DNA from: a virus
Length of the DNA stretch: 21,411 nucleotides
IMG/VR virus record: IMGVR_UViG_3300047323_000329
Span: 1 to 21,411 of that record
Reading direction: 5' to 3' (one strand)
The translations under genes and the position numbers were made by a program. Of this stretch, positions 2,807-21,379 are shown in pieces; position 1 is the first letter of the stretch; each line of letters starts with the position of its first letter. The notes beneath the pieces are model-generated. The model worked only from the letters and a program-made list of their open reading frames with translations, did no database searches and was not told the DNA's origin.

Positions 2807-3256
2807 ATGTCACGTATTGGCGGCAAGAACTTCGACGTGAACCTGGGCGATCTGCTGGTCCACGTTGAAAACTGCACCCTCGACATCACGGACAACACGG
2901 CCGTGGCGCAGAGCGGGGGCGTCCCCAATGGTCACGTTGACGGTGACGTTTCGGCCAGCGGGGAAATGGAATTCGACACCAGCAACTTCAACCTGCTGAT
3001 TGAAGCCGCACGCACTGCCGGCAGTTTTCGCGAACTTGAACCTTTCGACTCCGTGTTCTTCGCCAAGGCCGGCGAAGAGGAACTGCGTGTTGAGGCCTTC
3101 GGCTGCAAATTGAAGGTCTCCAGCCTGCTGAACATCGATCCGCAAGGTGGTGAAAAGTCCAAACACAGGGTGCCGTTTGACGTCACCAGCCCGGATTTCA
3201 TTCGCATTAACGGCGTGCCGTACCTGGCTGCTGCCGAGATCGAGGGCCTGCGCTGA
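2807..3256 (+). CDS. Tail tube protein (DUF2597 family)
   Basis: A 149-aa protein of the DUF2597 family, which occupies the tail-tube position next to DUF2586 sheaths in HP1-like phages and would form the inner tube around the tape measure. Features are the start MSRIGGKNFDVNLGDLLVHV, a beta-rich body with ENCTLDITDNTAVAQSGGVPNGHVDGDV and a short FIRINGVPYL C-terminal strand. These fit the small beta-sandwich tube fold (inference). GGAG lies at 2794-2797, 9 bases before the ATG. The TGA overlaps the ATG of the next gene (TGATG), so the two are probably coupled. Confidence 0.8.
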   Translation: MSRIGGKNFDVNLGDLLVHVENCTLDITDNTAVAQSGGVPNGHVDGDVSASGEMEFDTSNFNLLIEAARTAGSFRELEPFDSVFFAKAGEEELRVEAFGCKLKVSSLLNIDPQGGEKSKHRVPFDVTSPDFIRINGVPYLAAAEIEGLR

Positions 3257-3468
3257 TGGGGGATTGGCTCGACAACGCCAAAGCGATCGAGGAGCTGGAG
3301 CGTGAGCGTTCAATCGCTGCCCAACTTGCCCAGCCGCGTTCAACGGGACCGAGCCGAACCCACTGTGCGACTTGCGGGGACGAGATCCCTGCTGCGCGCC
3401 AGGCGCTTGGCGGGATCACACGCTGTACGCCATGCCAGACCACTTTCGAGAAAGGAACCCGCCGATGA
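3256..3468 (+). CDS. Small TraR/DksA-type C4 zinc-finger protein
   Basis: A 70-aa protein with four cysteines, Cys37-x2-Cys40 and Cys57-x2-Cys60, spaced as in the DksA/TraR zinc finger and preceded by a short charged helix (residues 8-24). DksA/TraR proteins bind the secondary channel of RNA polymerase and modulate initiation, and short phage versions are common in P2-like tail/lysis regions (P2 Orf82 type). The protein has the zinc-finger end but only a very short helical part compared with DksA, so whether it can act on polymerase is unproven. The start overlaps the tube gene stop and the stop overlaps the next ATG. Location beside the lysis genes suggests a late role. Confidence 0.8.
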   Translation: MGDWLDNAKAIEELERERSIAAQLAQPRSTGPSRTHCATCGDEIPAARQALGGITRCTPCQTTFEKGTRR

Positions 3469-3794
3469 CAAACAGTCTGCGGCAGAAAATCGCTGCACCA
3501 CTTTCGGCGCATGGCCGGTTGACCGCCGTAGAGGGTGAGATCGCCATGATTGCCTACCGTCTGGGACAGCTGGAGACCCGGCATGAATTGGTGCCGACAC
3601 GCGTTACCAAGCTGGAACAGCAGTTCGAACACATGTCTGGCCAGCTGTCTGAACTCAACGTCGGCCAGCAGAAGCTGACCGTTGTCGTGTCCGCGATCGG
3701 CAGCAAGATCACCTGGGCATTGGCGATTGCCAGCACCTTGTGGGCAATCCTGCAGATGTTCGGTCCGACGCTGTTGCGGGTACTGCTGCCATGA
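3465..3794 (+). CDS. Holin-like membrane protein with N-terminal coiled coil
   Basis: A 109-aa protein with a soluble, heptad-like N-terminal part (about residues 18-72, rich in Leu/Glu/Gln) and one hydrophobic segment near the C-terminus (about residues 72-108, strongest 83-100, KITWALAIASTLWAILQMFG). This topology resembles XhlA-type phage holin accessory proteins. Placed directly before the lysozyme and spanin genes, it is the best holin candidate in the window. The ATG at 3465 overlaps the previous stop and has AGAAAGG upstream (3450-3456). The frame is open further upstream but that part overlaps the zinc-finger gene. A single membrane segment is fewer than in class I holins, so it may be a holin partner. 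The call rests on topology and context. Confidence 0.6.
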   Translation: MTNSLRQKIAAPLSAHGRLTAVEGEIAMIAYRLGQLETRHELVPTRVTKLEQQFEHMSGQLSELNVGQQKLTVVVSAIGSKITWALAIASTLWAILQMFGPTLLRVLLP

Positions 3795-16851: not shown

Positions 16852-17601
16852 ATGCCTGCAGGAATCGAACTCCCTTGGTCCATTGAACCCGCCGGTCAAG
16901 AACCCATGCTGGTGGAGCTTATTAAAGGTGCACCTGGTTTTGCCGGGTGGATCCAGGCGGACGCGGATTACGCGACGTTTGCCGGTGGCAAAGTCCTGTC
17001 ATTGGGCGGGCCAAGCGCCATGGCGGTCATGCAACCAGTAGCGGCCAATCAGGCTGCCCTGGTGGATAACGCGGTACCGGGTGGTTATTCCGCATTGGCC
17101 TTCACGCCGGCGGCGACGACACGTTATCCACTGTCCACCGGTGTGCTCGACACCACCAAGCCGTTCTCGCTCCTGGTGTTGATCAAGCCTGCTTTACCAG
17201 GGGGCTCTACGCAGATTTGTCTGGGACGTTTTGCCAGCTCAACTGTTCGAGCGGCATTGTCGACCCCTGCGAATGCGGTGGCGAAGATGAACTTCCTCTA
17301 TGGCGCAGCAACCATCGAGTTCCCGATTGCCTTTGGACAATGGAACGCGGTGTGGATCGTTTGGGACGGCGTAAAGCTCAAAGCCCGATCTAATGGCGTG
17401 CGTGCAGCAGACGTGACCGCAGCAGCGGACACGGCAACATCCCCATTCGTTATCGGTGGCCCGGCCAGTGGTGTGTTGTTCTGGGAAGGTCAGTTTGCCG
17501 AAATGATTGCGTTCAGTACCGATATGTTCGCCCAAGGCAATCAGGTAGGGTTTGATGATGTGAATACGTATTTGGCGAACGTGTACGGCCTTGCCGCTTA
17601 G
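16852..17601 (+). CDS. LamG/ConA-like lectin-fold tail-associated protein
   Basis: A 249-aa protein with the beta-sandwich pattern of concanavalin/LamG domains: FSLLVLIKPALPGGSTQICLGRF (strand pair and turn), WNAVWIVWDGVKLKARSNGVRAADV ('w....W.dG..l....nG') and PFVIGGPASGVLFWEGQFAEMIAFS ('iGg.....f.G.iae...y'). These domains bind carbohydrates or support trimer contacts in phage spikes. An excellent TAAGGAG (16837-16843) overlaps the preceding stop and precedes the ATG. It is the last gene of the late operon and probably partners with the tailspike (inference). No signal peptide or enzyme motif is seen. Confidence 0.68.
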   Translation: MPAGIELPWSIEPAGQEPMLVELIKGAPGFAGWIQADADYATFAGGKVLSLGGPSAMAVMQPVAANQAALVDNAVPGGYSALAFTPAATTRYPLSTGVLDTTKPFSLLVLIKPALPGGSTQICLGRFASSTVRAALSTPANAVAKMNFLYGAATIEFPIAFGQWNAVWIVWDGVKLKARSNGVRAADVTAAADTATSPFVIGGPASGVLFWEGQFAEMIAFSTDMFAQGNQVGFDDVNTYLANVYGLAA

Positions 17602-17608
17602 CGATCGC

Positions 17609-17637
17609 TTGTATGACGTTAGCTGGGAGTTTATAAC
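17609..17637 (+). promoter_or_regulatory. Predicted sigma70 promoter of the moron gene
   Basis: TTGTAT at 17609-17614 and TATAAC at 17632-17637 are separated by 17 bases, the ideal spacing (-10 box 5 of 6 matches, -35 box 3 of 6). They lie in the 90-bp gap before the AT-rich gene at 17692 and point towards it. With the terminator after that gene, this gives the promoter-gene-terminator unit typical of phage morons. Predicted from sequence only. Confidence 0.5.
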
Positions 17638-17691
17638 TCTGCAGAGAATATGCGCAGCACGCCCATATCAAGTATGAAAGGGTAGTCGGAT

Positions 17692-19014
17692 ATGAAGTTT
17701 GATAGTGCGGATCTAGGGAGGCTGATTGATAGAACACTTGCTATAGAATGTTTTGAAATCACTCTAACCCAGAATACTGATCAAGCCCCTTTTGTTTTTA
17801 GTGGGCCAGGTTGTATTACTCTGCAATCTGATGGGCGTCTTGCTCTAAAAATGTATGATGCTGCGAAGAAAAGCAGTATAGGGGATATTGCGCGATTTTT
17901 CTTTCATCAAACAATCGGACTGGTGCCAGAATCTGAGTATTATTCACTTTGCGCAAAGGATGCTCATGGAAATTTGTGGATCTCATCAAATATCTATATA
18001 AGGGACGGATTGTCTCTGACCCCCAATGGGACAATAATTGAACTGGATGTTCCCAATATATGGGCGACTAAATCCACGCGACCTAGGACAGATTTGATAG
18101 GGCAGTCGATTGCAGAAGTGATAGTCTTAGGGAAATTTAGATTGCCCTATAATAAGTTTGAAGATCAAGCAGACGGTTCTTCATCAGTGACAGCGATCGA
18201 ATTCGATGCTGCGAATCTCGAATTAAAAATAGCTCAAAAGCCTGAGCATCTAGCAATAAATATTGTTAGCAAAACAGGTGTTGTAGAACAGAACTGTGTA
18301 GTTAAAGTATCTGAGGCGCTTGGAATTGCCATTGGTACGGAAACGGCTCCGTCTTATTACCGTATCTACACTGAAGGCAGGATAGATTCATTTATAAGCG
18401 GAAGAAAAGATGTAAAGGGCTTGGGTGTTATGGAACCCTTGGTAGATGTATTTTCCTACAAGTCTGAAAAATTCGTTGCGTTTATGGGTTTTTATATTGC
18501 CAATAGAAAAAAAGAGCATGATCATTTAATTAGCTATTGGAATCGGCTGTATTACGTGTCCGACATTATTACAGATGTCGCCGCGCTTGTGCTGACAGTT
18601 AATATTGAAGGTATGGTTAAAAACTATTTTTCGAAGGGGAGAGTTCCTTCGCGCTCTATTCTAGATGAAATCGAAGCTAGTGCTAAATTGATTAAAAATG
18701 CTAAATTGCCAGACTATACAAATTCTCGAATTTCAAGTTGTCTTGGGAATTTAAAGAAGCTTACTGTGACTAATATTCTTAAAGAGCTAGTTGTCGAAGG
18801 TGTCGTTGAAACTGGGCATGTGTCGAGTTGGATTTCGCTTAGGAACTTGCTGGCGCATGCGGACAATGTTTCAGGGGAGCACGAAGCATTTGGCGTATTT
18901 GTAGAGAATATTTATAACTGCCTTAGGCTATTTTATCGACTTATTGGATTGAGCGTTGGGTATGACGAAAGATACGTCGAACAGTTAATTAGCGAACTGG
19001 AGTCGAAAGGCTAG
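17692..19014 (+). CDS. Probable HEPN-domain defence protein (ApeA/Abi-like moron)
   Basis: A 440-aa protein. No named family is certain, but two parts are visible. Residues 1-250 are beta-rich and soluble (FVFSGPGCITLQSDGRLALKMYD, then repeated strand-turn patterns), reminiscent of the N-terminal domain of ApeA proteins. The last 160 residues are helical and contain R384-N385-L-L-A-H389, the R-(N/D/H)-x3-H motif of HEPN RNases. The sequence around it, WISLRNLLAHADN, is typical of the motif helix, followed by a final helix (VFVENIYNCLRLFYRLIGL). HEPN proteins cut RNA, and ApeA is a known anti-phage abortive-infection protein. The gene is much more AT-rich than the tail genes, has its own promoter and terminator, and AGGG upstream. 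It is probably an accessory gene active in the lysogen. Substrate and trigger are unknown. Confidence 0.7.
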   Translation: MKFDSADLGRLIDRTLAIECFEITLTQNTDQAPFVFSGPGCITLQSDGRLALKMYDAAKKSSIGDIARFFFHQTIGLVPESEYYSLCAKDAHGNLWISSNIYIRDGLSLTPNGTIIELDVPNIWATKSTRPRTDLIGQSIAEVIVLGKFRLPYNKFEDQADGSSSVTAIEFDAANLELKIAQKPEHLAINIVSKTGVVEQNCVVKVSEALGIAIGTETAPSYYRIYTEGRIDSFISGRKDVKGLGVMEPLVDVFSYKSEKFVAFMGFYIANRKKEHDHLISYWNRLYYVSDIITDVAALVLTVNIEGMVKNYFSKGRVPSRSILDEIEASAKLIKNAKLPDYTNSRISSCLGNLKKLTVTNILKELVVEGVVETGHVSSWISLRNLLAHADNVSGEHEAFGVFVENIYNCLRLFYRLIGLSVGYDERYVEQLISELESKG

Positions 19015-19034
19015 CCAAAGTCTAATCCTGCATA

Positions 19035-19059
19035 AAAACCCGCCCATGGCGGGTTTTTT
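19035..19059 (+). terminator. Intrinsic terminator of the moron gene
   Basis: CCCGCC (19039-19044) and GGCGGG (19048-19053) form a perfect 6-bp GC stem with the loop CAT, flanked by A-run and T-run (TTTTTT at 19054-19059). A/T pairing extends the stem to at least 8 bp. It lies 25 bases after the HEPN gene stop and, since the A-run gives a reverse T-run, could also work on the other strand. Confidence 0.92.
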
Positions 19060-19139
19060 GATGAGGGCGGCTAAGATATGCAGCGGACCATTGTGAATGT
19101 CGTGGACCGAAGCCCGGGCTGACCCTAAGGAAACCAGGT

Positions 19140-19208
19140 AGACGCTGCTCCCAGGTACGTACAACTCTGCTGCTGACGAGTTGTGTTTACCCGAACAGCA
19201 TCGCGTCT
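19140..19208. other. Nested inverted repeats, possible structured RNA or protein site
   Basis: Outer arms AGACGC (19140-19145) and GCGTCT (19203-19208) are complementary, with TGCT/AGCA continuing inside. An inner perfect 7-bp repeat ACAACTC (19161-19167) and GAGTTGT (19178-19184) encloses a 10-base loop. Together they could fold a branched 69-nt structure. On the reverse strand a GGAGG followed by GTG lies just upstream (about 19216-19230) and would open only a 5-codon frame. Function unknown. Confidence 0.4.
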
Positions 19209-19746
19209 AACGTCGAAAACACACAAAAATTCCTCCGAAACAAAAACGATCAAGAAAACGCACTTATCCCCCTCCCGCCGACGGGCTTTGTGTCCTTTTT
19301 TTGTGCAATTCCGGATGTAGTGCAAACGAACCTGCAGCCCAGGCGGGCCGTGGGGCTCTGCAGGGGATCGGCCATTTCACAAAGTGCAAAGTTTTGAAAG
19401 GAAATGCAGCGGGGTTGCATAGCGGTGCATGGGGCTGTCACGGAGGGGGTATCGCTGGAGTGCTCGGTTTCATTGGACGAAAACTTTGAAAACGTAGGTT
19501 TCGGTGCGTTTTCAAAAACGCGCACGATCTTTTTTGGCCGGAGATTGGCTGTGTGCGGGGAGAGGCTGAATTCCCTGCAAGCCACGAATGGCGGGGGGTG
19601 TGGTGTGTTTGATGAATTTCACAGATTTGAAGACGATCGACGACCAGGTTCGTCTTTCTGTAACCGATCCAGGCTTCGTGAAAAAACGTCGTTTTTGAGA
19701 TTGATTCTTAAGGGGAGGGTGGTCGTTTCAAAAAGAGCGATATCAG

Positions 19747-20061: not shown

Positions 20062-20102
20062 TGGGCTCAGGTTGTGCGGCTGTTTGCGTCTACTCTTATC
20101 AA

Positions 20103-20124
20103 ACGGTCCCCAATACGGCCCCCA
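20103..20124 (+). repeat. Putative integrase arm-type direct repeats, copy 1
   Basis: ACGGTCCCCA (20103-20112) and ACGGCCCCCA (20115-20124) repeat with a 12-bp period, about 34 bases before the att-type duplication. The same pair, ACGGACCCCA and ACGGCCCCCA, recurs at 21238-21259 at the same distance from the other tRNA-Gly copy. A variant, CGGACCCCCA, is at 20021-20030. The layout fits tyrosine recombinase arm sites. Confidence 0.5.
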
Positions 20125-20157
20125 GAGGGATGCGGTAAGGGATGAACAGAGCTGCAG

Positions 20158-20213
20158 GCCTTGAAAATAGTGGATCGGGTGAAGGGAATCGAACCCTCGT
20201 TATCAGCTTGGGA
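20158..20213 (-). repeat. Attachment site: duplicated 3' half of tRNA-Gly (prophage right end)
   Basis: These 56 bases match 21293-21348 with a single mismatch (20175 against 21310), and 20176-20213 are a 38-bp perfect match. The part from 20171 to 20213 equals the tRNA-Gly(CCC) from the anticodon loop to the CCA end. The 5' half of the tRNA is absent, so this copy is not a gene. A truncated 3' tRNA copy downstream of the intact gene is the standard mark of tyrosine-integrase insertion into a tRNA. It defines the right limit of the prophage. The left att copy is outside the window. Confidence 0.82.
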
Positions 20214-20221
20214 GCTACTGT

Positions 20222-21046
20222 TTAGGGTCTTGGCCGTTGCACGTGTTTCGCCACGAAATCCCCAGCCCCGAGGCAACAAGCGACAACTGCGGCAGAGATC
20301 CAGGCTTTATAACCGCCAAGCCCGTCGTCCATTAACTGGAGATCTTCGATGACGCTGGTCAGAGAAAGCACGCCCCCTACTCCGCAACCAATTGCCGACG
20401 CAACTAAGAATCGATAATCGAGGCTTTGCTCACGTCGTCTAGGAAGGATCCAAACGTAAGAAAAGTACGTAGTGAGCGCGATAATACACAGGACCAAATT
20501 CATGCCAAGTCGCCACGGCTTGCGATGGTTGACGAATGAGTCTTCGATAACTATTTGGCGAATGCCTGCAATTCTGGCTTTGACGCTTATCTCCGGGTCA
20601 CTTCCAGACGTGATCGTTGAAAAGACAATCTTGTCTCCCGGATTTATGAGGAAAGGGGCAATAGACACGTGCTTAGCGTTGGACGAGACCACCGCGGGGA
20701 TATCCCTAGGGTCGGTAAAATCCACTCGTGCGGTCACAAACTCAAGACCGTTTCCACCAGAGAATTCGATTGGCCCCTCGAAATCAGAACTCAAAATCGG
20801 TTTTGTACCGGAGTTCGTCACCTCAACAGTGGTGAAATGCGGGTTGGCCAGCTGAGTGCCATTTACGGTCATTTGTATTTTGTAGATTTCGGAACTTGGA
20901 AGGGGCTGCAGCGATGACGTGGCTATCAGCCTAACCGAGAGGTCGTGCGCCTTGAGTTCGGACTGCCATTGGTAGGCCGGGAGCGCTACGGCAGCGACTG
21001 CCAGGATAGTACCGAGGAGGTATTTCCAATCGAAAGTCCGTTTCAT
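20222..21046 (-). CDS. Membrane protein of unknown function (cargo between att copies)
   Basis: A 274-aa protein, not recognised. One N-terminal membrane segment (about residues 9-26, YLLGTILAVAAVALPAY) is followed by a beta-rich domain of about 150 residues (YKIQMTVNGTQLANPHFTTVEVTNSGTKPI...), probably periplasmic. Three more hydrophobic helices follow near the C-terminus (about 180-201, 213-231 and 248-265) and then a basic tail. The middle domain has the feel of an Ig-like/beta-sandwich fold (VEVTNSGTKPILSSDF). Composition is more moderate than that of the tail genes. The stop lies 8 bases from the att duplication and the gene fills most of the 1.1-kb segment between the two tRNA-Gly copies, so it is the only cargo gene there. 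AGGG precedes the ATG. A membrane-linked defence or exclusion role is possible but unsupported. Confidence 0.68.
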   Translation of the reverse strand: MKRTFDWKYLLGTILAVAAVALPAYQWQSELKAHDLSVRLIATSSLQPLPSSEIYKIQMTVNGTQLANPHFTTVEVTNSGTKPILSSDFEGPIEFSGGNGLEFVTARVDFTDPRDIPAVVSSNAKHVSIAPFLINPGDKIVFSTITSGSDPEISVKARIAGIRQIVIEDSFVNHRKPWRLGMNLVLCIIALTTYFSYVWILPRRREQSLDYRFLVASAIGCGVGGVLSLTSVIEDLQLMDDGLGGYKAWISAAVVACCLGAGDFVAKHVQRPRP

Positions 21047-21160: not shown

Positions 21161-21210
21161 TGGTGCCAGCACCAGGAATCGAACCTGGGACCTACTGACT
21201 ACACGTCAGG
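21161..21210 (-). pseudogene. Broken tRNA-Thr: 3' half only
   Basis: On the minus strand this reads as anticodon arm, variable loop, T-arm (CCAGGTTCGATTCCTGG) and acceptor 3' strand ending TGCTGGCACCA. The matching 5' acceptor strand (GCCAGCA) and the D-arm are absent upstream, where unrelated att-side sequence begins. The anticodon loop reads CGTGTAG, suggesting a TGT (Thr) anticodon but with G instead of the invariant T33. It therefore looks like a decayed or recombinant remnant. Identity as Thr is by resemblance of CAGTAGGTCCC and the acceptor end to tRNA-Thr(TGT). Confidence 0.66.
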
Positions 21211-21237
21211 GGCTTGCCTGGACATCAAAACGTTCAA

Positions 21238-21259
21238 ACGGACCCCAAAACGGCCCCCA
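21238..21259 (+). repeat. Putative integrase arm-type direct repeats, copy 2
   Basis: ACGGACCCCA (21238-21247) and ACGGCCCCCA (21250-21259), 12-bp period, lie exactly 1135 bases after the pair at 20103-20124. They are 34 bases before the repeated stretch that leads into the intact tRNA-Gly. Between them and the tRNA the two copies diverge, so the arm sites are conserved beyond random drift. Confidence 0.5.
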
Positions 21260-21292
21260 ACTGATTGCAGAAATGTTCATGCACCGCTGGAA

Positions 21293-21348
21293 GCCTTGAA
21301 AATAGTGGAGCGGGTGAAGGGAATCGAACCCTCGTTATCAGCTTGGGA
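21293..21348 (-). repeat. Attachment core copy at the intact tRNA-Gly
   Basis: Partner of the duplication at 20158-20213 (55 of 56 positions identical). It covers the anticodon loop to CCA end of the tRNA-Gly gene plus 13 bases downstream (GCCTTGAAAATAG). The identity outside the tRNA must come from related mobile-element ends, since the chromosome alone would not supply it twice. Confidence 0.8.
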
Positions 21349-21379
21349 AGCTGGAGTAATGCCATTATACGACACCCGC
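21306..21379 (-). tRNA. tRNA-Gly (anticodon CCC)
   Basis: A complete 74-nt cloverleaf with encoded CCA. The acceptor arms are GCGGGTG and CACCCGC. The D-arm is short, and the anticodon stem is CCAGC/GCTGA (outermost pair mismatched) around the loop TTCCCAA, anticodon CCC. The T-arm is AGGG-TTCGATT-CCCT and the end is TCCA. The sequence closely follows E. coli tRNA-Gly(CCC). Its 3' half serves as the integration target, and the inserted DNA lies downstream of its 3' end, as expected for a tRNA that stays functional after integration. Confidence 0.95.

Follow-up and report, generated by a model that had tools for sequence, protein, structure and literature searches.

A predicted HEPN protein with a beta-rich N-terminal domain, encoded in the cargo slot of a P2-like Pseudomonas prophage

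Described HEPN systems and the prophage protein

HEPN proteins share a published signature, Rx4-6H, in which the residue after the arginine is usually a polar N, D or H; in the domain's published arrangement, this motif closes helix 3 (PMC3710099). Several described systems invite comparison with the protein reported here. ApeA (HEPN_Apea, PF18739; PADLOC models Cas13-ApeA and PDC-S58) is encoded by a single gene and comprises a HEPN domain at the C-terminus and, ahead of it, a long N-terminal part. The title of a preprint cited as reference 19 of PMC13405049 reports deoxydinucleotides as its activators. Tha, which occurs in Staphylococcus prophages, has been reported to be an infection-triggered HEPN RNase that causes abortive infection (PMC11087260). 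The HEPN-MNT toxins (PDB 7ae2, 7ae6, 7ae8, 7ae9, 7bxo and 5yep) are small, stand-alone toxins accompanied by an MNT antitoxin. Finally, P2-like prophages possess a defence hotspot, the A-Q interval or old/tin locus (PMC9122126, PMC9519451).

The subject of this study is one gene in a 21.4-kb virus record (21,411 nucleotides, analysed whole and called "the window" below). Its product shares with ApeA the single-gene format and the domain order, is of comparable length (440 aa vs. 454–505 aa), and has its Rx4H motif in register with that of ApeA; one difference lies in the motif itself, which in the window family reads R[NH]xx[A/V/M]H and is preceded, four residues before the arginine, by an invariant tryptophan. 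Comparison with the published description of Tha of Staphylococcus aureus (PMC11087260) shows that both proteins are encoded in prophages, have their HEPN domain at the C-terminus and contain an RNxxxH motif (in Tha, R265NSIMH270). The tail-activated Tha, however, has 301 aa, no discernible N-terminal domain, and an overlapping inhibitor gene; no inhibitor was identified for the window protein. The HEPN-MNT toxins furnished the best fold matches of the window protein's C-terminal domain, but the window protein has a large fused beta domain, and no MNT gene was seen adjoining its gene. The family's E. coli member sits in the A-Q hotspot, in contrast to the window's cargo, which lies at the opposite end, after the tail genes.

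The cargo slot, the gene and its signals

The late genes of the window match those of Pseudomonas phage UFJF_PfPro (Peduoviridae) and of other Pseudomonas phages; judged by sequence, the host element is a P2-like Pseudomonas prophage and its host a Pseudomonas-type bacterium. The original prediction had described an AT-rich, 440-aa gene between a GC-rich late operon and the attachment region, and it was correct: the open reading frame has a GC content of 0.401, compared to 0.611 in the late operon, and it stands alone at the right end of the prophage, between the last tail gene (16852–17601) and attachment-side DNA. The same prediction called the gene a prophage moron, i.e. cargo. Indeed, the region after the last tail gene can be regarded as a cargo slot, because other genes occupy it in relatives and because sequence identity breaks and resumes at its edges. 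Identity of 92% with the Pseudomonas prophage L024 ends at position 17588, and conserved DNA restarts at 19225–19254 in L014, L018, L019, L020 and L024. The slot of L024 is filled by two different genes, both on the minus strand (1666–2469 and 2807–3640) and one of them with DUF2971, while UFJF_PfPro has a glycosyltransferase gene between its late genes and its right end. The gene in the window thus has the marks of a moron: a predicted transcription unit of its own (with putative promoter and terminator), a deviant base composition, and absence from relatives. The two genes in the L024 slot are themselves further candidate cargo.

Table 1. Positions in the window of the gene, its putative signals and the predicted features of its product
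Feature	Position	Strand	Basis or remark
Variable cargo slot, last tail gene to attachment-side DNA	17602..19224	.	Identity break vs. related prophages
Putative promoter, TTGTAT-17-TATAAC	17609..17637	+	8/12 consensus; core common to three homologues
Putative ribosome-binding site, AAAGGG	17677..17682	+	9 nt before ATG; AAGGG kept in three homologues
Gene for predicted HEPN protein	17692..19014	+	ATG start, intact ORF, 440 aa
Beta-rich N-terminal domain (predicted), residues 17-236	17740..18399	+	AlphaFold2 model
C-terminal HEPN domain (predicted), residues 255-424	18454..18963	+	Model and profile match to HEPN_Apea
Codon of E306, invariant acidic residue	18607..18609	+	13/13 rows
R384-N-L-L-A-H389 motif (Rx4H)	18841..18858	+	R and H in 11/11 rows
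Intrinsic terminator	19034..19059	+	Folds at -16.6 kcal/mol, z = -3.9

Of the signals proposed to give the gene its own transcription unit (Table 1), the strong terminator was recovered, and the promoter was upheld in part. The proposed promoter sequence is present and its core is conserved in three homologues, but its score against the consensus is no better than chance: 50% of shuffles of the region do equally well, and a consensus promoter scan did not list TTGTAT-17-TATAAC at this position. The conservation takes the form of TTG and TATAACTCT at matching positions upstream of the three homologues of the HEPN gene; a 9-nt run that the window shares with all three is reached in 0.05% of shuffles. 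In L018 and L019 the conserved core bases double as the coding end of the upstream tail gene, and the conservation could therefore partly have another cause.

Farther to the right, the window has a 115-nt direct repeat (20099–20213 and 21234–21348, 82%) that overlaps a tRNA-Gly (21306–21379). The repeats are probably attachment-site copies; they lie approximately 1.1 kb from each other and enclose an ORF of 274 aa on the minus strand (20222–21046). The stretch at 21163–21210 resembles another tRNA fragment by eye, a spot at which ARAGORN makes no call; it could mark a further attachment site.

The predicted HEPN domain and its kinship with ApeA

R384-N-L-L-A-H389 is the sole Rx4H sequence in the protein. 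The presence of such a sequence is by itself weak evidence, as one occurs in 30% of the sequences obtained by shuffling the protein (R[NDH]x3H occurs in 4.1%). What makes it strong evidence is its conservation: the alignment has 13 rows, 11 of which cover the site, and both R384 and H389 are invariant in those 11. In each of these rows the residue following the arginine is N or H. Residues kept in every covering row include G38, G40, L301, E306, L363, G370, W380, R384 and H389. In the window protein, E306 forms part of an E-x3-K sequence that conforms to the Ex3[KR] pattern of HEPN proteins; the basic residue is not retained in all rows. The identification of this hexapeptide as a HEPN motif, made originally from a single sequence, is thus strengthened by the alignment.

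An AlphaFold2 model built with seven sequences is of moderate confidence (mean pLDDT 71.7, pTM 0.73), with a poor stretch at residues 315–356. It bears out the claim of a beta-rich N-terminal half, and it predicts helices at residues 255–271, 274–288, 294–313 (containing E306), 359–368, 374–388 (containing R384) and 397–421. This topology is HEPN-like, and R384-H389 is predicted to close a helix, in agreement with the published arrangement. A Foldseek search with the full-length model returned no meaningful match in the PDB or among viral models. When the C-terminal domain was isolated, the top eight PDB fold matches were all HEPN proteins, each of them weak (E of 0.35 or worse). HEPN proteins accounted for 21 of the best 50 such matches, a count that includes 2jpu and 2q00, which we take to be HEPN proteins. 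In the predicted model, then, the fold check ranks HEPN proteins first, and from the sequence and the model together the assignment of the C-terminal domain to HEPN is well supported.

For comparison with ApeA, PF18739 matches in Pseudomonas provided nine loci, eight of which were aligned; six of the PF18739 loci were checked against PADLOC, and all six match its ApeA or PDC-S58 models. The C-terminal profile of the window family matches HEPN_Apea at P = 0.0012, with the motifs in register. Among the controls, a reversed one gave 0.56, the best of 29 unrelated families gave 0.054, and none of 150 column shuffles reached the score. By profile comparison, the window's HEPN domain thus appears to be a remote, above-control relative of ApeA's HEPN domain, in keeping with the original suggestion that the protein is ApeA-like. 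N-terminal profiles yielded two short matches to ApeA (P = 0.008 and 0.06, against controls of 0.089 or more), which are suggestive only; aligning with ApeA globally by hhalign was not informative. Because the N-terminal domain could be a highly diverged counterpart of ApeA's N-terminus, the domain pairing, which the original prediction raised as possibly undescribed, may be new only in part. The ApeA models of Pfam and PADLOC found no match in six family members. To call the gene an ApeA was ruled out, since no ApeA model matches the protein.

The family, its neighbourhoods and a proposed function

About a dozen relatives, with 17–54% identity, came to light when genomes, viral contigs and plasmids were searched. 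The closest are on the viral contigs L018, L019 and L020 (53–54%, full length). A P. agarici copy has 34% identity and a frameshift that splits the gene, leaving RHTLAH in the other frame; a Salmonella plasmid copy is truncated, with an IS3 transposase gene next to it; and a P. veronii plasmid has a split copy. More distant Pseudomonas and viral members (L007–L010), plasmid proteins of Bradyrhizobium and Agrobacterium, and a member in an E. coli P2-like prophage (L021, about 21% identity) complete the set. Three homologues are broken (L002:7998-9319 by a frameshift, L003:8001-9014 by truncation before the IS3 transposase gene, and L004:4264-5629 by a split frame), suggesting frequent loss or inactivation of the gene. 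Within the genus, only 4 of 400 genomes gave a match, and a profile search of 369 same-class genomes revealed no new member. Among three close relatives, a dN of about 0.07 and a dS of about 1 indicate purifying selection. Single-sequence scans of the 440-aa protein against Pfam, PADLOC, PHROGs and NCBIfam (Pfam and PADLOC at E up to 5) assigned it to no family, profile libraries held no named-family match for any member, and PDB sequence searches with family profiles gave nothing, or chance matches only.

The neighbourhoods of several homologues contain defence systems. The E. coli member (WP_089624026.1), present in 9 of 5426 genomes, has the P2 replication endonuclease gene on one side and the portal gene on the other, an interval known as a P2 defence hotspot (PMC9122126, PMC9519451); the passages of these papers on the hotspot do not name the protein, and a literature search did not find its accession. 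In one strain this member adjoins a retron Ec67 / I-C gene, and in another it is followed by a DUF4145 gene (L035:6727-7425), DUF4145 being a predicted member of the HEPN superfamily (PMC10799925). The L036 homologue adjoins a complete Lamassu set (LmuA, LmuB and LmuC), with Drt8 (DRT8) about 4.5 kb away. Between that distant homologue and the Drt8 gene is a 469-aa protein (L036:11831-13237) that has no PADLOC match and is a candidate defence gene in its own right. Other neighbours include an integrase, a weak DUF2971 match and a DzbA-like gene (L037), Tn7-type transposition genes (L038 and L004), an AriA-like ATPase (L010), and an integrase gene to which the HEPN homologue is directly 3' (L002). 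Judged from these neighbours, the family appears to be genetically associated with known defence systems.

We consider it probable that the moron encodes an infection-triggered, single-gene abortive-infection HEPN RNase of an ApeA-like family, with its beta domain as the sensor. The gene would be cargo of the P2-like Pseudomonas prophage, and its product a single-chain, two-domain RNase. We infer that the C-terminal HEPN domain dimerises, and that R384 and H389, with E306 assisting, would cut cellular RNA, perhaps tRNA, in a metal-independent manner. The beta-rich N-terminal domain would hold the RNase off until infection and, as the presumed sensor, would switch it on in response to a protein from the phage or to a nucleotide signal produced during infection; a nucleotide ligand is worth considering because ApeA, according to the preprint title noted above, is reportedly activated by deoxydinucleotides (PMC13405049). 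The infected cell would then stop growing or die before phage release, and the lysogen population and the prophage would thereby be guarded against rival phages. It is the gene neighbours that point to this anti-phage effect; the presence of non-defence genes in cargo slots, such as the glycosyltransferase of UFJF_PfPro, counts against a defence reading.

Could the gene instead be half of a two-gene system that pairs a HEPN protein with a membrane protein? In L018, L019 and L020 a 278-aa gene whose product has one N-terminal membrane helix lies directly 3' of the HEPN gene, and the window gene would then either be a variant that acts alone or a remnant that no longer works. We regard this as unlikely, given that the partner is limited to those contigs among all loci searched, that a remnant of it was sought in the window and none was found, and that the window gene is intact and closes at its own terminator. 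The 278-aa gene (L018:4575-5411, L019:5940-6776 and L020:5269-6105) begins about 20 nt after the HEPN gene, has no confident Pfam match, and may be the second component of a two-gene system. An improbable reading, too, is that of a toxin/addiction gene or another lysogenic-conversion function serving prophage upkeep or altered host physiology instead of phage defence: many HEPN proteins are toxins (PMC3710099) and the P2 hotspot has non-defence cargo too (PMC9122126), but no antitoxin-like partner gene was seen beside the window gene and several homologues adjoin defence systems. That the C-terminal domain is not HEPN at all, its Rx4H having arisen by chance in a helical domain of another kind, is very improbable: the frequency of the motif in shuffles, the weakness of the fold matches, and the lack of any named family among sequence-profile matches at E up to 5 would allow it, but independent lines agree against it, namely the invariant R, H and E, the N or H after the arginine, the position of the motif in the helix order, the HEPN proteins that come first among the fold matches, and the HEPN_Apea profile match above controls.

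HEPN abortive-infection proteins are known as a kind; what is new to the libraries searched is the window family and its N-terminal domain. We suggest only tentatively that the gene represents an undescribed single-protein anti-phage RNase whose sensor fold is absent from known defence systems and that exists in both solo and membrane-protein-paired forms. The family is missed by PADLOC, Pfam, NCBIfam and PHROGs, yet its members occur on plasmids, in defence islands, and in prophages of E. coli and Pseudomonas, all of which would contain an uncounted HEPN defence should the family prove active. With one conserved predicted RNase joined to strongly diverged natural sensors, the family would be suited to the study of ApeA-like triggers.
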